Position numbers and translations under genes: made by a program. DNA of 48,653 nucleotides from a candidate division WOR-3 bacterium (GTDB lineage Bacteria; Hydrothermota; Tepidihabitantia; Tepidihabitantales; CAIPLT01): contig JAOABV010000004.1 of NCBI GenBank assembly GCA_026418155.1, forward strand, positions 15,458 to 64,110. Reading direction: 5' to 3'. The notes beneath the pieces were generated by a model that saw only the letters and a list, made by a program, of their open reading frames with translations, had not been told where the DNA came from and ran no database searches. Shown piece by piece: positions 3,171 to 28,573 of this stretch (its first letter is position 1; every line of letters starts with the position of its first letter).

Positions 3171-4017
3171 TTCGGGCCTCTAATAATTCTGTCTTTTTCC
3201 CTAAAAATTCTGCCGCCGTTATTAATTTGATTTCTCGGTTAACATTAGTCCGTCGTAGTAAATCCCGTACTTCCTTATAATAAATTTGGTAATTTAAATC
3301 TCGGGTCAAATGATGGTCAATAATAAAAATTTTTGCCTCGGTCTCTTTTATTATTCTTGCCATATTCGCTACCGATTTTTGCCAAGTGCTATCAGAATAA
3401 CGATAACCTTTAAGATATAGAGAAGGACCGTCACAGATAATAATGTCAGGATTATTTTGGATAATAAAAGACAAATGGCTCTCATCAGGAATACCACATA
3501 CATCTGAGGTAAAAAGTAATTTCTCAATTGTATCATCAATTAAAACCTCAATCACATAACCTAAATGATGTGATGTTCCATGATATACTGCTTTAGAGCA
3601 GAAAATTTTAGTCTTATTAAAATAAAAACTTCCCTCTTCTGCAATCTCAATTTTTTTAGTCTTAGAACTGACTCGTTTTAGGAATACTTGAGCACGCTCT
3701 TTTTGACTGAAATTAATATTTTCTGTAGGGTGTTTTACAATAAGAAATTTATCTTGAAATAATTCGGGAAAATCTGGATTGTGATGGTCATAATGATAAT
3801 GAGTAACAATAATAACATCGCAGTTTTGAGCAAAATTAATAATCTGCTGCCAATGTTCATCTCTTCTTTTTATTTCGACAGGATGAGGGGCTAAATTGTA
3901 ACGAAGCGGGGCTAAACGAACTGAAGGGTCGATAAATATTTTTACATCATCTGTTTCAATATAAGTTGCCATTGCTCTTGTGCCTAAACTATCAAAGGCA
4001 ACAGGTATAATCTTCAT
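3133..4017 (-). CDS. UPF0282-family MBL-fold metallo-hydrolase
   Basis: This 294-residue protein has the metallo-beta-lactamase signature THYHYDHH at about residues 72-79. Later ligand-type motifs are TSDVCG, DGPSLYLKGY and DHHLTRD. The N-terminus (SLGTRAMATYIETDDVKIFIDP, split by family memory into SLG.R.MAT and ETDDVKI.IDP) and the stretch RYNLAPHP are what I recall as diagnostic of UPF0282, a family described mostly from archaea. The substrate is unknown; the fold binds two metals and hydrolyses esters, phosphodiesters or lactams. The last dozen residues are encoded by the 20-bp tandem repeat that follows, so the tail is probably not functional. The gene stands alone between a plus-strand exporter and a long non-coding tract. 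Confidence 0.75.
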   Translation of the reverse strand: MKIIPVAFDSLGTRAMATYIETDDVKIFIDPSVRLAPLRYNLAPHPVEIKRRDEHWQQIINFAQNCDVIIVTHYHYDHHNPDFPELFQDKFLIVKHPTENINFSQKERAQVFLKRVSSKTKKIEIAEEGSFYFNKTKIFCSKAVYHGTSHHLGYVIEVLIDDTIEKLLFTSDVCGIPDESHLSFIIQNNPDIIICDGPSLYLKGYRYSDSTWQKSVANMARIIKETEAKIFIIDHHLTRDLNYQIYYKEVRDLLRRTNVNREIKLITAAEFLGKKTELLEARRRELYITEENFI

Positions 4018-4743
4018 AATGATGCTGTGCTGAAAAATATTTGAAGAAATGTCATTAGCATATTACTGATGGTTCTTCGAGTCTAAGAAATGTACGCGTT
4101 TTCTTCAACACAACTTATATTGATAATTAAGAAAGAATACATTTAATATTGGATAATAAAAATGCCACTGATACACAATTTTATTATTAAGTGTTGAAGA
4201 ACATTTTCCGTCAAGTGTCAAAAGGACGAATCAGAATTAAAATTGCTGAAAGCATTTTCTATTTGCATTGTATTTAAACATTATTATGTGATATATCCAC
4301 AAAATTTTTACTTTTTATTATATGGAAAAATATAATGATGTCTACAATTTTAATCAATATGATAATCTCAATCAAGAATTCTTTTATATTGCACCGCTAT
4401 GAAAAAGTAATTTTTACTGATTACCCGCGGCAAACATTCAAACAAAATTTCTGTCTAATTTAACATCAGATTTTCTGACAGTCTTTCTTTTAATTTATTT
4501 CATAGACTACTTATTAAATAAGAAAAGATATCTTTTAGCAGAGAAGGTAAGAGTAGAAGGTTTTTGTTCAAAAGAGAATAGATTATAAGAGATACAGATA
4601 GACGATTTGGGCTAACCGAAAAGCGACTCTCTCTGCGGTATACCAGATAGGATAGATTTTGCCGTATGTTATGATTTGGCTAAGATAGGGTCAGGCCTAC
4701 CCTAGCCCCCCTACTGCTCCCCTACGCCAAGTTATGAAGTTTA
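4018..4743. other. Gene-free AT-rich tract upstream of the UPF0282 gene
   Basis: I see no credible ORF here on either strand. The right half (about 4440-4735) is a degenerate copy of a dispersed element also present near 40640-40925. Part of the minus strand there resembles the translation of a short ORF in the other copy but is broken by stop codons. A C-rich patch (CTACCCTAGCCCC) at 4697-4710 is shared with the second copy. No good promoter for the UPF0282 gene was recognised. Confidence 0.6.
4440..4735 (+). repeat. Degenerate dispersed element, copy A
   Basis: The core (4498-4539) matches 40710-40750 at about 34 of 40 positions, around TTAAATAAG.AAAGATAT. Weaker similarity extends upstream (AGATTTTCTGACAGTC against AAATTTTCGGTCATAC). 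It extends downstream to the shared C-rich patch CTACCCTAGCCCC, which lies about 185 bases away in this copy and about 175 in the other. Both copies sit in gaps, in the same orientation and upstream of a secreted-protein region. Boundaries are approximate because they were aligned by eye. Confidence 0.6.
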
Positions 4744-4810
4744 CTAAAAAGGCAAGGGGGCGAAACTTCGCCCCCTTAGTTTTAGGTCTGGCATCTTTTT
4801 GATGCCAGAC
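4744..4810 (-). terminator. Double-hairpin terminator for the 4821-8957 gene
   Basis: Read on the minus strand just past the stop codon, the first hairpin is GTCTGGCATC / GATGCCAGAC (4786-4810, 10 bp, loop of 5). The second is AAGGGGGCGA / TCGCCCCCTT (4754-4777, 10 bp, loop AGTT). The second is followed by GCCTTTTT, the pattern of a Rho-independent terminator. Both stems are perfect and unusually GC-rich for this DNA. Confidence 0.85.
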
Positions 4811-4820
4811 AAATTCTATT

Positions 4821-7800
4821 TTATTGGACGATGAGTTTAACTTCACAGGAGTTTGTTGCATCTTTATACTTCAAAAAGTAGATACCATTAGCAAGATTCT
4901 TAGCATTCAGTGTAGTTGTGTATGAACCAGCCTTGTGATGTTCGTCAGTTATGGTTTCAACCAGACGACCTGATGCATTGTAGAGTTTGATTGAGACTTT
5001 GCTCGAATTTGGCACATTGTATTTAATCGTGGTCAGTTTGTTAAATGGATTTGGTGTTGCATCAAATTTGAAGTTGAGAGCGCCTGTAATATCTGAAGTC
5101 ATAACTGCAGTTTGGGTTGTAGCAACTGACGCTGTTGCTAATTCAGCATAGATTGGTCCGTATCTCATCACTTCTAAGGTATTATTGCCTTTTAAGAGAT
5201 AGACATAGTTATTGCCATAGGCCAAAGCAGCACCAGTCTTAGGAGTTCCTTTTTTACCAAGCACGCCTTTGGGAATAGTTTCCAGACCAATCCAAGTGCC
5301 TTTGCCAGGTTCATATTTCCAAAAGTCCTGAGCACCACCGCCTTTAATCGCATAGATTGTTGAACCGTTCGTTGCCATTGCACCACCATCTTTGACTATC
5401 GCTTTCTTTGTTAATCTCGGATGGAAGAGAGGTATCGTCTCTTTTTCAAACCAATTTGTGCCATCAAATGCATGGAAATAGTTATGTTTGCCACCACCTT
5501 TTAAGACATAAACTCTATCACCAAGCGCTATAATGCAACTACCATCTTTATAAGGTTTGCCATCAGGTGCTGTGGGTGCTTTAAGTAGTGTGGTCCAAGT
5601 CTTATTTGTTGTATTATAGGCAAAGAAGTTATCAAATTCTGGCTTTAATCCGCCGACTAAGACATAGAGCAGACCATCTTTATAGGTTAGTGCGGTTCCG
5701 CCTTTGGCACCTTTGAGTGAAGGTAGCCAGTTTTCAAAATACCAGTGTCCGTCATTCAGATTATATCTCCAAAGTTCAAATGTGCCATTACCTTTAGTCG
5801 CATAGATTGTGCTTGCGCCATCCCAACAGAGTGCTGCACCTTTGCCGGGAACCTTTTTGTTATATTTGGAACTATCAGTCACAGGATATTTTAAGCCAAA
5901 GCCAATGGTCTCAACCTCAGTCCAGGAAGGTTCAACATATTTTACGAACTTTTTAGACTTATTACCAGGGAAAGCATAAAGAACAGCAGATTTGGTTTCC
6001 ACTGCAGTCATTGCGCCACCGGCTTTGACGCCTTTACCAGGTGCTGGTTCAATGATATTTGCAATCCAAGACCAAGTTGCTGCTGGTGCTTCAATAACAT
6101 TGAAACTACCTGCAGGTGCGGAATTATTATTAGGATTAGCATCTCCCGGTAATGCAGTCCAAGCATTAGTTGTGAATTCGCCTAAAGTAGTTGCATTATA
6201 TAAATCAAATTCCACAGTATCAATTTGGCCAACATCTAAAGTGACCCAGGCAGTATCTACATATTCGCCGTCTTTAGCACTTCCAATTTCAAATACAACA
6301 GGGAATGAACCAGTTGCGACACCATAGTTTTGAACGACAACTTTGGGTCTAACCGAACTACCTCGATAGACATTACCAATTGGAGCAAGAATTGCAGTTG
6401 CGCCAACATCAAATACCGGCTTATAGAAATCGTTCCAAACTCTCGGTAATAATTGGAAAGTATCTTTATAAGCCGAGAGATTGCCGATAATTGATATTGT
6501 ATCAATGGGAATAGTTTGGCCGATAATTTCAGTTGCGCTGGCATCAATTCTTATGCGCACAGAATCAGTTTCATCGTTATTATAAGCCCAATAATTAGTT
6601 GAGCCGGCAAATGTGCCAGTAGTTTTGAAGTGTAAATCATTAATTCTGATTAAACATCCTTCGTAATCTTCAATTACACCAGAAATTGTTCTCAGAGTTG
6701 TACAAGGCAAAGGTCGATTGTTGGCATAAACTCGAACATCGCCATTAAGGTTATAACCAGCGTCGATTTCAGTTAGGGTAAACCATTCTTTAATAATACC
6801 GATGACGCTAACACTATCACCAATATTTAGTTTTGGTAAGGAATCTTGAAACCGGCGGTAAACATAAAGTTCATTGCGAGCACCACCGGGTCTTTGGGCA
6901 ATAAAGAACCGCGAGCCAAAAGTACCAGTCACAATACCTTTGGTGTGGACGTATTTCAGTGTCTCGGGTGAAGATGCACCGGTGCCTTGAATTTGGTCAA
7001 TAGTTAGTTCAAATGGAATTGTGTAGCGAGAAATTCCTGAAATAGTTGTGTATCCGTCTCCATCAGTTGCGTGAATTTTATAAAAGATGGTATCGCCTTG
7101 GGATTTGAATGCTGGAATGGTATAAGTAAAGATTGAATCGCTGGGATTATAACCAGTCTTTAGCACATAGTTCCAGGTAGTTTGAGTATTGACTGCATAG
7201 AATAGAGTATCAGCAATATTGGCTAAAGGAGTCTGCGGGTCATATATTTTTGCCGTGACAGTTACGATTTCACCTGATAAAGGAATTCTCGGAGTTCGAG
7301 TAATCTGAGTAATAATAGGTTCATTTGGAATATCTAAACAGGTGCTATCACCAGCATTAACTGTCCACGGACCAGGAATTTCAGTATAAAATGGCAGAAT
7401 TGCATTAGTTGTTCTATTTCTAACTTGTAAAGAATCAATAATGCCAGATTTCACTGCCATTCTAATATAGCCAGCATTACTGGAATTATAGCCTTCGTCA
7501 ATATTATTATTTTCTGTAGCATAGGCACCGACAACCTCATTACCTTGGTAAGCCAAAACAACGACATTTTCCCGAGCCGGACCACCATTATATTCGTAAA
7601 TATGTCCATAGAGCCAACCACCATCACCTGAAGTCGTCATATTTAAAATCTTAATTGGCAAGGTATCCGAATCATAATTTTGTTCAGCAACAATGTGTCG
7701 CACTCTTAAACATAAGAAGGTATCAACAGGAATGGTTGGTCGTGCTTTCATAAAGACCCAGAATTTAGTTGTATCATCGACCCCACTACAGAATATTTTA

Positions 7801-8957
7801 GATAGACTTGTCCAAGCAGCACCATCATCTGCCCAATTATTACCATTAATGTTCCAGGTTAAACCTCTTCCGCCAATTCTTCCTTTATAATAAAATGAGT
7901 CATTAGCCGCTCCAGGCTTTATTCCAGCATAAAATGCAAAAGGTGTGCCGGTACCTGGTGTTCCTGTAGTTGCACCACCTTGAACATATCTTGGTCTTGT
8001 TATTATTCTCACACGTGGTGGAACAATTACATTATAAGAATATGCTAGAGTTCGAGTCGAAGCCCCTGAATCGTCTTTTGCCCAAACATAATAATAGACT
8101 TTGCTTCCGTTAGGGACTCCGGGAATTGTGTAATAGAATGTAGAATCAGTTTTTGTGCTATCATGATAAACTCTAATCCATGTTGAACTGTCGTTGATTG
8201 CATAATATAAACTATCCACGATATTCGCTAAGGGGCAATAGTCATCATAAATTTTTGCCTTAACTACAACCGCTTGATTTGGTGCTGGTGTTGTTGGTAT
8301 CCTTGTCACACTAAAGATAGTCGGCGGTTGATTTGGTTGTAATATTTCTTGGTTAAAAACATAAATTGAGTCAATATTGAAATAACGGTTTGTCCCTCCA
8401 GATGGTTCAGCATAATTATCGTAATAAATCCAACGAATATTGACACTGTTCTGCCCATTAAAAGGAGTTAAATCACAAGTTAATTTATATCCGGTATCTC
8501 TTACCGCAGTCTGCCGTAAATTATAAATATAATTGCTGTCCAATACCAGAACAGGTGTCCAATTTAAGCCGTTGGTTGAGACTTCAATTTTGATAGTATC
8601 AAGTCTTGTATAAAGTCCATATGCACTACCAGAACCAGGACAACGGAAATAAAAACTTAAAGATTCAACACTTGGAGATGAAAAATTAAGTGTTGGAGAG
8701 ACAAGATAACTTGTTCCTTGAGTATTACCGCCTGATTGTCCATAAAAAATAGCAACTCCAGCGGATGCACCACTACGAAATACCTGGCCTGAAGTTCTTC
8801 TAACCCAGTTCTGAGCCGTTCCAGTTTGACCATTTGTCCAATCTGTCGGCGGAAATGTTGAAGATTCGAAATCTTGATAAAGTAATGTTGCGCCCAAAGC
8901 GATTTGAAGACTAATTAATAGCAATGCGATACTTATGGTTTTTATTTTTTTACTCAT
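4821..8957 (-). CDS. Large secreted multi-domain protein with kelch-like repeats and type A sorting domain
   Basis: The start is set at the ATG at 8957 (1378 residues). It is preceded by GGAGGT eight bases upstream and opens directly into a signal peptide (MSKKIKTISIALLLISLQIA); a 54-codon upstream extension is leader RNA. Domains in order, by residue: a choice-of-anchor-J/MAM-like jelly roll, 25-205 (LLYQDFESSTFPP); an Ig-like domain, 211-300; a second related Ig-like domain, about 542-640; an OB-fold-like domain, 655-760; a CARDB-like domain from about 846; six kelch-like strands, about 960-1270, recurring as G-[GAT]-A-[ML]...IYA.KG; and a C-terminal sorting domain from about 1295 (PNPFNKLTTIKYNVP...GRLV...NGIYFLKY). 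It is probably exported and then anchored or released through that domain. The function is unknown; adhesion or glycan binding is an inference. A double hairpin terminates it. Confidence 0.85.
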   Translation of the reverse strand: MSKKIKTISIALLLISLQIALGATLLYQDFESSTFPPTDWTNGQTGTAQNWVRRTSGQVFRSGASAGVAIFYGQSGGNTQGTSYLVSPTLNFSSPSVESLSFYFRCPGSGSAYGLYTRLDTIKIEVSTNGLNWTPVLVLDSNYIYNLRQTAVRDTGYKLTCDLTPFNGQNSVNIRWIYYDNYAEPSGGTNRYFNIDSIYVFNQEILQPNQPPTIFSVTRIPTTPAPNQAVVVKAKIYDDYCPLANIVDSLYYAINDSSTWIRVYHDSTKTDSTFYYTIPGVPNGSKVYYYVWAKDDSGASTRTLAYSYNVIVPPRVRIITRPRYVQGGATTGTPGTGTPFAFYAGIKPGAANDSFYYKGRIGGRGLTWNINGNNWADDGAAWTSLSKIFCSGVDDTTKFWVFMKARPTIPVDTFLCLRVRHIVAEQNYDSDTLPIKILNMTTSGDGGWLYGHIYEYNGGPARENVVVLAYQGNEVVGAYATENNNIDEGYNSSNAGYIRMAVKSGIIDSLQVRNRTTNAILPFYTEIPGPWTVNAGDSTCLDIPNEPIITQITRTPRIPLSGEIVTVTAKIYDPQTPLANIADTLFYAVNTQTTWNYVLKTGYNPSDSIFTYTIPAFKSQGDTIFYKIHATDGDGYTTISGISRYTIPFELTIDQIQGTGASSPETLKYVHTKGIVTGTFGSRFFIAQRPGGARNELYVYRRFQDSLPKLNIGDSVSVIGIIKEWFTLTEIDAGYNLNGDVRVYANNRPLPCTTLRTISGVIEDYEGCLIRINDLHFKTTGTFAGSTNYWAYNNDETDSVRIRIDASATEIIGQTIPIDTISIIGNLSAYKDTFQLLPRVWNDFYKPVFDVGATAILAPIGNVYRGSSVRPKVVVQNYGVATGSFPVVFEIGSAKDGEYVDTAWVTLDVGQIDTVEFDLYNATTLGEFTTNAWTALPGDANPNNNSAPAGSFNVIEAPAATWSWIANIIEPAPGKGVKAGGAMTAVETKSAVLYAFPGNKSKKFVKYVEPSWTEVETIGFGLKYPVTDSSKYNKKVPGKGAALCWDGASTIYATKGNGTFELWRYNLNDGHWYFENWLPSLKGAKGGTALTYKDGLLYVLVGGLKPEFDNFFAYNTTNKTWTTLLKAPTAPDGKPYKDGSCIIALGDRVYVLKGGGKHNYFHAFDGTNWFEKETIPLFHPRLTKKAIVKDGGAMATNGSTIYAIKGGGAQDFWKYEPGKGTWIGLETIPKGVLGKKGTPKTGAALAYGNNYVYLLKGNNTLEVMRYGPIYAELATASVATTQTAVMTSDITGALNFKFDATPNPFNKLTTIKYNVPNSSKVSIKLYNASGRLVETITDEHHKAGSYTTTLNAKNLANGIYFLKYKDATNSCEVKLIVQ

Positions 8958-8983
8958 TTTTAGATACCTCCAGATACTACTTT

Positions 8984-9061
8984 TGCATTCTGCGAAATGC
9001 ATTTGCTCAGATGGTTTAAACTGTTTTACGAGGTTTTCGGCTACCATCTTTAACCGAAAAC
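8984..9061 (-). promoter_or_regulatory. Structured 5' leader: candidate H-type pseudoknot plus hairpin
   Basis: On the minus strand upstream of the ATG at 8957, stem 1 is GTTTTCGG (9061-9054) with CCGAAAAC (9040-9033). Its loop contains AGATGGT (9049-9043), which pairs perfectly with ACCATCT at 9015-9009. The order S1-L1(TTAA)-S2-L2(AG)-S1'-L3(17 nt, A-rich)-S2' is the geometry of an H-type pseudoknot, with 8 and 7 perfect pairs. A further perfect hairpin, TGCATT-TCGCAG-AATGCA (9001-8984), follows before the Shine-Dalgarno site. It matches no riboswitch class I can name. Confidence 0.5.
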
Positions 9062-9203
9062 ACAGATTAATATGATGGTTGTTTAGATTATAATTAAAAC
9101 TTTTTTTATATTTATACATCGAGTTAATTTTATTTACCCGATGTTAATTTTATATAAACGAATTGTTAAATTTCTGTTAAGTTTTAGTTATTCTTTCAAT
9201 TAC

Positions 9204-9242
9204 AAATGCTAATTCCTTATTTCAGACCAGAAATTAGCATTT
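9204..9242 (-). terminator. Inverted repeat downstream of the 9281-10306 gene
   Basis: AAATGCTAATT (9204-9214) and AATTAGCATTT (9232-9242) form an 11-bp perfect stem with a 17-base loop, 39 bases past the stop codon. The T-run follows the stem on the plus strand only, so it is weak as an intrinsic terminator for the minus-strand gene. It may instead protect the 3' end of the transcript. Confidence 0.45.
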
Positions 9243-9280
9243 TTAATATCGATTAAAAATTAGGGTATTGTTGTTGGTAA

Positions 9281-10306
9281 TTATCTCAGTAGTGTTATCT
9301 TACTAATTTTTCTTTCGCTGTTTGTTTCTAATTGGATAAAGTAAATTCCTGCGGAAAGTAAATTATTCGCTTCATCTCTGCCGTCCCAAATACTGTTTGT
9401 TTCAGTTAAAGTTTTTACAAGATTGCCCGTCGCATCATAGATTTTAATGTTCTTGAAATTTTGGAGATTGCCATTATAACTGATATGAGTATAACTGGTA
9501 AACGGATTGGGCGAAATTCTTAGAGAAGGATTTGTCGAAAATTGGGCGTAATTCTCTTCAATGCAAGTTGGAATTGTTGCCGACCAACTTGTGCCAATTC
9601 GGATACCATCGATAATCACGGTTGGCCCGTTTGCAGCCTGACCTTGACGAAGTGCCACTGAACCAATATTGGCAGGGTCAGCACTGTTAGCAGGAGAAAT
9701 TGGTCCGACAGTTGGGGTTGCAGGTTCTGTTGCCGGAGCGGATGTGTTAAAGACAAATAAACTCAGTTGGTCATTGTTATCTCCAGAGACAATAGCATAT
9801 TTTACGACTAATAGATAAGTCGTGTTTACTGCGTAAGTAAAGCCAGTAAAGGTTGTGTCAGTGTGTCTTTTACCTAAACCAAATGCTAAATTATTCGATG
9901 CATCGCTTTTGATATGAATTCGGGCAAAATATTCGGCCGAACTTAAAGGATTAGTTGATAAATGGAAAAAGTAATCGCCAAGCGGTTTTGCTTTTTCTAC
10001 TCTGAGCATAAATGCGGTATAAATTGTTCCGCTGGTTTGCGCAGTAAAGGTTCGATTAACATCTTCGCCAGTTGAATCAACTCTTGCCGAAAGCCCGATA
10101 CCTGATGATGCATAAGATGGAAATGTTAATCCCACTGTATGCACTTTAATCGGATTTGTGCCACTGGCGCTGTGCGCAGTCCAGCCATTAGCAGTTAGAT
10201 TAGTTCCGGCGGTATAACTGAAGTTTTCTTGGAATAAGAGTTGAGCATCAGCGCTTATTACTAAGAGCGCAATTGCTGATAATATTACTGTGATTATTTT
10301 GTTCAT
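9281..10306 (-). CDS. Secreted LamG-like protein with C-terminal sorting domain
   Basis: This 341-residue protein starts at an ATG preceded by AGGAGG with five bases spacing. It begins with a signal peptide (MNKIITVILSAIALLVISADA). A beta-rich concanavalin/LamG-like region fills about residues 22-250. The last 80 residues are a type A sorting domain with PNPFTSYTHISY, KNIKIYDATGNLVKTL and LLSAGIYFIQLETN. It probably leaves the cell by the same route as the other three sorting-domain proteins in the window. No catalytic motif is recognisable. The gene is monocistronic by spacing: 346 bases separate it from the gene upstream and 323 from the next minus-strand start. Confidence 0.8.
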   Translation of the reverse strand: MNKIITVILSAIALLVISADAQLLFQENFSYTAGTNLTANGWTAHSASGTNPIKVHTVGLTFPSYASSGIGLSARVDSTGEDVNRTFTAQTSGTIYTAFMLRVEKAKPLGDYFFHLSTNPLSSAEYFARIHIKSDASNNLAFGLGKRHTDTTFTGFTYAVNTTYLLVVKYAIVSGDNNDQLSLFVFNTSAPATEPATPTVGPISPANSADPANIGSVALRQGQAANGPTVIIDGIRIGTSWSATIPTCIEENYAQFSTNPSLRISPNPFTSYTHISYNGNLQNFKNIKIYDATGNLVKTLTETNSIWDGRDEANNLLSAGIYFIQLETNSERKISKITLLR

Positions 10307-10652
10307 TGTGCCTCCTAAAAAAACATAATGTTTTGTGTTATTTTTGCTAATTTTTTATATATGTATATGTTATATAATAATGCCACAAGTAATAATTTAT
10401 ATAATATTTTACTATCTAAAATATAATATGTCAAGTCAAAAATAGGATTCATTTTCCGATAAAGTGCTTTCGTTAAATTCATTACTATCTTAATACATAT
10501 GTTATAAGATAATCTTTAACATAGGATTTTCCTTATTCTATCACCATAGTTTCGACCTTGCTAAAAATTAAATAAAAGAAAATAATAATAAATAAATAGA
10601 CGTTAAATTAGATGTAATATTTTAATCTTCAAATGTAAAAGCACCTAATATG
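10307..10652. other. Non-coding gap between mcsB and a secreted-protein gene
   Basis: This is very AT-rich sequence with no ORF. It must hold the promoter of the 9281-10306 gene and the 3' end of the mcsB transcript. A TATATA-rich patch at about 10356-10376 could supply a -10 box, but no convincing -35 partner was seen. There is no recognisable terminator hairpin after mcsB. Confidence 0.5.
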
Positions 10653-11774
10653 CTAATTAGATTGGTCTTGGGTTTGGTTCAATAGTTGTTTAATTAAGAT
10701 TGCCCGTTTTTCATCTCTTTCCGCTGGCGACATCTCTTGATTATAAAATATCTGTAAATTTGCTGGTCTCAGCAAGAGCATTATTTTATTGAGCGTAGCA
10801 AATGAAATGTCTTTGATAAGATTCAAAGCAACACCTAATCTCACCGTGGCAAGTAAATTCAAGGTTTCTTCACTGGTTATAATTCTTGCCGATTTTAAAA
10901 TCGCGTAGGCACGATAGATCTTATCTTCAAGTTCAATTTTAGTATGTTTTAAGAGGTATTCGCGGGCTTTTTGTTCATACGCAACGAGTTGTTCAGTAAC
11001 CTTTTCAATGCCCTCAATGATTTCTTGTTCGGATTGTCCGAGCGTAATAGTATTAGAGATTTGAAAGAAGTAGCCACGAGTTTCTGTGCCTTCACCGAAC
11101 AAACCCCGTACCGCATAATTTATTTGCCAAATACTGCGTAAGGTTTTTTCAATCTCTTTAGTTAAAACTAAACCCGGTAAATGGATTAAGACCGATGCTC
11201 GTAAACCAGTTCCAACATTACTCGGACAAGCAGTCAAAAAACCATACCGTGAAGAAAAAGCATAATGTAAAACAGACTCTATGTGGTCATCAATTTCATT
11301 CAGTTTTGCAAAGCCGGTCTTAAAGTCAAATCCCGAGGTTAAGACTTGGAGTCTTATATGGTCTTCTTCATTAACCATTAAAGTAGTGGTTTCGTCTGGA
11401 CTAATAAAGACACCGCGACCTGTGCCATTGGTAGTTTTTGAAGGTTCTAATTTGGTTATCTGCTGAATAAAATCCGGTGAGATTAAATGCCTTTCCATAA
11501 GAAATTCGGCTTTAAGCGGAGTAATTTTATTAAGCGTAATAAAACCAGATTTAGGAAAGACTTCTTGTAAAAAGGGTTCTTTGGTAATGGCCATTGTGAC
11601 CATATCTAATATTTCAGTAGATTCTTTAGGTGTTAACCGGTTAACAAAATGATAACCCGCAAGATTGCGCGCAAAACGGACCCGACTGGATAAAACAATA
11701 GCCGAACGGGCATCTTGGTCATCAAGCCAAGAAGGTATTGCGCGGTCAATGGCGTCAAAAACTTCGTTTTTCAT
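10653..11774 (-). CDS. mcsB: Protein-arginine kinase McsB
   Basis: This 373-residue protein of the ATP:guanido phosphotransferase family phosphorylates arginine side chains, marking proteins for ClpCP degradation in Gram-positives. Visible motifs are SSRVRFARNL near residue 29, NEEDHIRLQVLTSG around 135 (catalytic glutamate and ATP site) and CPSNVGTGLRASV around 183. Near the C-terminus is RDEKRA (residues 353-358), which fits the RDxxRA phosphoarginine-binding switch of true McsB and is absent from metabolic arginine or creatine kinases. The length and the mcsA gene 149 bases upstream agree with the assignment. No ctsR or clpC lies nearby. The gene closes a minus-strand run lysS-lolC/E-lolD-mcsA-mcsB. 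Confidence 0.95.
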   Translation of the reverse strand: MKNEVFDAIDRAIPSWLDDQDARSAIVLSSRVRFARNLAGYHFVNRLTPKESTEILDMVTMAITKEPFLQEVFPKSGFITLNKITPLKAEFLMERHLISPDFIQQITKLEPSKTTNGTGRGVFISPDETTTLMVNEEDHIRLQVLTSGFDFKTGFAKLNEIDDHIESVLHYAFSSRYGFLTACPSNVGTGLRASVLIHLPGLVLTKEIEKTLRSIWQINYAVRGLFGEGTETRGYFFQISNTITLGQSEQEIIEGIEKVTEQLVAYEQKAREYLLKHTKIELEDKIYRAYAILKSARIITSEETLNLLATVRLGVALNLIKDISFATLNKIMLLLRPANLQIFYNQEMSPAERDEKRAILIKQLLNQTQDQSN

Positions 11775-28273: not shown

Positions 28274-28573
28274 GAAAAAAGCAAAGATTGTATCAAAGCA
28301 AATCCAATCTGCTATAAATTTTTATCTGCCGGCCTGTTTGATATAGTAGGCAGAAGATTAGGCAACTTATTCTGTTATCCTATTGATAATCCAGAAGTTA
28401 AATCAATCAGCCGTTTAAAGGATAATCTAAATGTTTATGGATTTGGTAGTCAGGTGGGTATGCCGGCGGGTTGCCGAGGGGTAAGCCTCCCGGCTTGCCC
28501 TCCGGCTTGCCGACCGGCTTACCCTGAGGACAACCGAGAATGTCGAGCCGGTCACTCAAAACGATGATATGAT
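28274..28573 (+). pseudogene. Residual open frame interrupted by a GC-rich element
   Basis: The frame is open for 99 codons before TGA at 28571 but has no usable start. The first two thirds read like real protein (YKFLSAGLFDIVGRRLGNLF, then DNPEVKSISRLKDNLNVYGF). The last third is translated GC-rich repeat (PACPPACRPAYP). This may be a gene fragment truncated by insertion of the palindromic element. I recognise no family, and chance openness cannot be excluded. Confidence 0.35.
28469..28535. repeat. GC-rich palindromic element with 12-bp tandem units
   Basis: The left arm GGTTGCCGAGGGGTAAGCC (28469-28487) pairs with the right arm GGCTTACCCTGAGGACAACC (28516-28535) with few mismatches. The interior and right arm contain three 12-base tandem units starting at 28490, 28502 and 28514 (CCGGCTTGCCCT, CCGGCTTGCCGA, CCGGCTTACCCT). 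It is strikingly GC-rich against AT-rich flanks, as expected of a palindromic repeat element. Confidence 0.85.

Follow-up and report, generated by a model that had tools for sequence, protein, structure and literature searches.

Several riboswitches, i.e. preQ1-I, SAM-II/V and guanidine-III, are built on an H-type pseudoknot (PMC11625349, PMC6061858), and some preQ1-I types control translation through the Shine-Dalgarno (SD) sequence (PMC11625349). Another leader pseudoknot has been described in the odc1 (uORF) motif of alphaproteobacteria, where a leader hairpin with a loop pseudoknot goes along with an additional start codon ahead of the main one. In that motif the 5' end is the partner of the loop, the UUG start adjoins that of the main gene and the leader encodes a conserved peptide (PMC8632094). 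Many of the remaining RNA classes have been argued to be rare and narrowly distributed (PMC8632094). As regards cargo of the type IX secretion system (T9SS), one literature search listed no paper joining it with a leader RNA.

The locus described here lies in a stretch of 48,653 nt from a candidate division WOR-3 bacterium (hereafter the window), for which an earlier note had proposed a pseudoknot in the leader ahead of the coding sequence for a large secreted protein. The knot is probably a real and so far unlisted control element. Our main reading, to which we assign a probability of roughly 0.6, is that of a conserved cis-acting leader pseudoknot belonging to one large type IX-secreted protein gene within one family, and probably acting on translation.

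The knot lies on the minus strand, i.e. that of the gene, the earlier note having given no strand, and from 9061 to 9009 its order is GTTTTCGG-TTAA-AGATGGT-AG-CCGAAAAC-CTCGTAAAACAGTTTAA-ACCATCT. Two perfect interlocking complements of 8 bp (S1) and 7 bp (S2) are present in pseudoknot order as claimed, as are loops of 4, 2 and 17 nt, the last of which (L3) is A-rich. S1 is extendable inward by a U·G and a U-A pair (9053-9052 with 9042-9041), giving 10 pairs and reducing L1 to 2 and L2 to 0. The minimum-free-energy fold of the window leader, together with a by-eye comparison of the leaders, further suggests an outer helix, P0, with tentative counterparts in two related genomes, i.e. CTG/CAG in G003 and GCCC/GGGT in G002. 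The 6-bp hairpin and the SD site that had been noted downstream of the knot were likewise found, the latter 37 nt away and thus outside the knot; the hairpin is absent from the G002 leader and hence no conserved part of the element. Upstream of S1, at 9073-9084, the window carries a second copy, AAACAACCATCA, identical over 12 nt to the S2 3' region of G002, which could compete for GAUGGU; no copy of this type was seen in the G002 or G003 leaders.

Besides the T9SS sorting domain, the 1378-aa product of the downstream gene has kelch and DUF5689 matches, both below cut-off. The ORF finder places its start at 9119, giving a longer product in the same frame. We consider 8957 to be most likely the main start, because of the signal-peptide-like MSKKIKTISIALLL with GGAGG in front (Table 1).

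Table 1. Positions of the knot, its surroundings and the loci compared
Feature	Sequence	Position	Strand	Remarks
S1, 5' arm	GTTTTCGG	9061-9054	-	Seen in the sequence; covarying across three genomes
S1, 3' arm	CCGAAAAC	9040-9033	-	Seen in the sequence; covarying across three genomes
S2, 5' arm	AGATGGT	9049-9043	-	Contains AUG at 9047-9045
S2, 3' arm	ACCATCT	9015-9009	-	ACCATC same in all three genomes
L3		9032-9016	-	A-rich; TAAAACAGTT common to G003, TAAAAC common to G002
Candidate outer helix P0, 5' arm	CTGT	9062-9065	-	Partner ACAG 9024-9021 within L3; tentative
3' hairpin	TGCATT/AATGCA	9001-8984	-	6 bp
SD site	GGAGG	8971-8967	-	Ahead of ATG at 8957
Candidate leader start frame		8957-9047	-	Open in three genomes
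Large downstream gene		4821-8957	-	1378 aa; T9SS sorting domain above cut-off
Small upstream T9SS-sorted gene		9281-10306	-	341 aa
T9SS loci compared		Window 4821-10306; L106 (G003) 4810-10672; L107 (G002) 3530-8905		

The same knot occupies the same place in the leaders of the homologous genes of G002 and G003, which represent two other genera of the family, and in the three genera it lies ~23-51 nt upstream of the main start. The G002 leader reads UUUUUAGUUG-AA-GAUGG-CAACUGAAAAA...ACCAUC, that of G003 GAUUUUGGUU...UGGUGGU-AACCAAUAUC...ACCAUCA. A covariance model of all three leaders (R1) found exactly these in their genomes, the other matches being weak and, on inspection, without a knot. 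When one leader was left out, the model of window and G002 (R2) recovered that of G003 with 32.2 bits (E 2e-4, 31 kb searched), and that of window and G003 (R3) picked the right hairpin of G002 as the best of four sources, at a weak 15.3 bits (E 0.11). Given this weak match and a genome-wide R3 search that gave weak matches without the G002 leader among them, G002 is the weaker member by sequence. Plain alignment of the intergenic regions gave a match confined to the element between window and G003 (score 42 vs a null maximum of 34) and nothing significant between window and G002. A descriptor calling for a hairpin with a stem of at least 8 pairs and GRTGG in its loop, followed 5-22 nt further on by CCATC, was matched by these leaders alone in 1.16 Mb of sequence (both strands) and at five places in 20 Mb of random sequence of the same dinucleotide make-up, or ~2.5e-5 per 100-nt leader, a figure that is an estimate and no blind test, the descriptor having been written after the members were seen.

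Alignment A6 comprises three rows (window, G002 and G003) and has small power; 92 % of its cells pair. Three pairs in S1 and one in S2 change on both sides with pairing kept, and one further pair per stem changes on a single side, in S2 from A-U to G·U. Across the three genomes S2 keeps GRUGG/CCAUC and the letters of S1 differ. With the partners slid by 1-3 columns as a control, 29-57 % of cells paired with 0-1 compensated changes, while 29 of 500 shuffles of the 3' letters reached as many double changes as the alignment itself. RNAalifold returned S1 unprompted from A6, an alignment that had been fitted to S1. In sequence, S1 is less conserved than the loop, L3 and ACCAUC, and the strength of the case lies in covariation taken together with position and with sequence conservation in L3 and S2. 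Covariation had been named in the earlier note as the check to be made, and the compensated pairs in both stems, from three sequences, support its leader pseudoknot as a conserved element.

In all three genomes the knot stands between a small T9SS gene on its upstream side and the large one downstream, an order that holds despite differing N-terminal modules and the entry of other DNA into the G002 gap. The large proteins of window and G003 are ~48 % identical where alignable. Between the genomes, the small and large T9SS genes have apparently exchanged N-terminal modules, the knot staying with the large gene. The G002 gap, which separates the knot from the small T9SS gene, contains a gene for a 23S rRNA-intervening-sequence-type protein (L107 4628-5026; PF05635, E 3.8e-32) flanked by inverted AGTTTTAGAG.../...CTCTAAAAC, which by its sequence looks like an insertion. 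G003 carries GAGATTGCCGCGCCTTCGGCTCGCAATGAC between the small and the large gene (L106 5856-5885); it looks like a dispersed repeat and was found at no other place in the compared loci.

How such a knot might act is suggested by the AUG that the S2 5' arm contains in all three genomes, a start that S2 may cover and that speaks for translation control no less than for an aptamer. In the folded knot, S2 would bury this leader AUG (GAUGGU) and tie up ACCAUC, which could otherwise pair near the main SD; in the unfolded knot, the leader AUG would be exposed and free ACCAUC would block the main SD. The folded state would favour the main start, and what shifts the balance might be a ligand, a protein or temperature, or nothing at all. 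When the two S2 arms were barred from other pairing in folding, the predicted openness of the SD rose from 0.31 to 0.71 in G002 and from 0.68 to 0.92 in G003, but no release was predicted in the window (0.30 to 0.29). A simple SD switch is thus predicted for G002 and G003 but not for the window, and for this reason we hold an action on translation of the downstream gene with moderate confidence only. Transcription attenuation is spoken against by the lack of terminator-like sites in the three leaders, in which promoter-like sites were no more frequent than by chance. Programmed frameshifting was also rejected (G002 is without a coding frame into the knot; an in-frame TAG lies just ahead of the leader AUG).

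An alternative is a passive role, in which the knot would stabilise the 5' end of the mRNA or serve as a ribosome-standby structure, guarding the leader against nucleases or mispairing with no switch involved. The very stable S1, the SD outside the knot and the gain in SD openness in two of the three genomes with the S2 arms occupied all agree with such a role, whereas a plain hairpin would suffice for stability and the sequence conservation of S2 and L3 suggests something more specific; we regard it as possible, if rather unlikely. It is also tempting to speculate on a new class of leader pseudoknots that would regulate a secreted surface protein through a decoy AUG hidden by S2. The frame of this AUG runs on to the main start, and the ribosome would use one start or the other according to whether the knot is folded, a proposal that we put forward as doubtful.

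A riboswitch is possible and not favoured. The earlier note had thought of a cis-regulatory RNA, possibly of a new class; covariation upholds the conserved leader element, but its occurrence as a single copy before one gene of no metabolic function, in one family and with no clue to a ligand, argues against the riboswitch. A new H-type ligand riboswitch, with the A-rich L3 in the groove of S1 and a metabolite stabilising the knot and changing access to the main ribosome-binding site, would match known H-type aptamers in topology and size (PMC11625349, PMC6061858) and would suit a loop, L3 and ACCAUC better conserved than S1. On the other hand, no relation to Rfam was found: Rfam 15 gave nothing relevant for window 8850-9290, whether at gathering thresholds or with E relaxed to 10, or for the loci of G002 and G003 with E up to 1. 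The preQ1-I and SAM-II/SAM-V covariance models were unmatched in the window, G002 and G003 loci, and instead of queuosine biosynthesis or transport genes a T9SS-sorted protein lies downstream in all three genomes. Taken together, we judge a riboswitch of this kind improbable.

The narrow distribution emerged from several searches. The element is single-copy per genome and present in three of the four genera of the family; R1 found no fourth member in 147 genomes of the phylum or in ~390 genomes of relatives, and no second copy in the window's genome, despite 79 T9SS sorting-domain matches there. Searching 61 relatives with the leader DNA returned nothing useful, the exact pattern GATGG-TAAAAC-CCATC occurred in the leader arrangement only in the window and G002 among 150 genomes, and none of 22 exact matches to the conserved L3-S2 pattern in viral contigs had a hairpin. 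Both stems are paired in G002 and G003; the leader of the full-length ortholog of G001 (58 % identical) is without the knot, which speaks against the main reading. That leader (L006 1361-1440) has a GCAACGG/CCGTTGC hairpin of its own, the loop of which, TTGTCAT, is complementary to an upstream ATGACAA. The G004 leader falls outside the comparison, its contig starting inside the gene.

Alternatively, the conserved part could be coding, with translation from the loop AUG yielding a leader peptide or extending the protein N-terminally, and with the pairings secondary. In each of the three genomes the frame of this AUG indeed reaches the main start without a stop (shuffle product ~0.002; noticed after the fact, the frame counts as a lead), and in G003 it comprises 25 codons with its final TGA overlapping the main ATG. 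Against this, the peptides are unlike among the three genomes and the AUG-to-ACCATC distances of 32, 30 and 33 nt do not keep the frame, which makes a conserved leader peptide unlikely as far as the sequences tell; moreover, no good SD precedes the leader AUG and the compensated changes of S1 would be left unexplained. We rate a coding role as quite improbable.

G·U pairs occur in S1 of window and G002 and in S2 of G003, and would be A·C on the opposite strand; as those of all three genomes fit the sense strand only, the conserved RNA is that of the gene-sense strand. A DNA-level inverted repeat, serving as an operator or recombination site without any RNA, could draw on the DNA palindrome that the S1 arms also form and on the exchange of N-terminal modules next to the element, but it is very unlikely, since the S1 sequence differs per genome, which an operator would not tolerate, the G·U pairs break the DNA symmetry and S2 interlocks.

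As a single sequence the knot is unremarkable and within chance, and the case rests on the comparison with relatives. Its stacking energy of -29.2 kcal/mol ranks third in the window (both strands), one knot at least as strong turned up in a total of six first-order Markov shuffles of the window, and z is -1.85 for the leader when folded by minimum free energy alone; both the shuffle frequency and this z make the single sequence insufficient to claim a feature. The strongest knot scores of the window belong to a G+C-rich, internally repeated stretch at 28465-28533 (both strands), probably repetitive DNA of a coding or spacer region. That AT-rich DNA gave rise to the complements by chance, with ~0.2 knots this strong per shuffled 48-kb window, is hardly credible in view of the same motif with compensated changes in the leaders of two further genera and the descriptor expectation given above.

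With T9SS cargo genes numbering dozens per genome in the family, a pseudoknot bound to a single one of them offers a control element of uncultured bacteria that is small and open to testing. It also shows that there are leader RNAs specific to one family and present once per genome, which searches that rely on many members would miss. Compared with the H-type riboswitches, i.e. preQ1-I, SAM-II/V and guanidine-III, the topology is common and the model and genes differ. Like preQ1-I, the element is a small H-type pseudoknot in a 5' leader, but S1 has 8-10 bp, the SD is remote in the window where that of preQ1-I is inside the knot, and the gene served encodes a secreted protein, not queuosine functions. 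SAM-II and SAM-V share the H-type pseudoknot as a leader element (PMC6061858) but differ in that no methionine-related gene is found here, and the 2-4 nt of L1 could not accommodate the SAM-V third strand (G5-G11). Closest in idea is odc1, a leader pseudoknot beside a second start codon, with the differences that here the loop pairs downstream, the AUG lies inside S2 and 60-90 nt upstream, and the open frames encode peptides that are unlike, where odc1 has a conserved one. The knot would fit the description of a rare, narrowly distributed RNA class.
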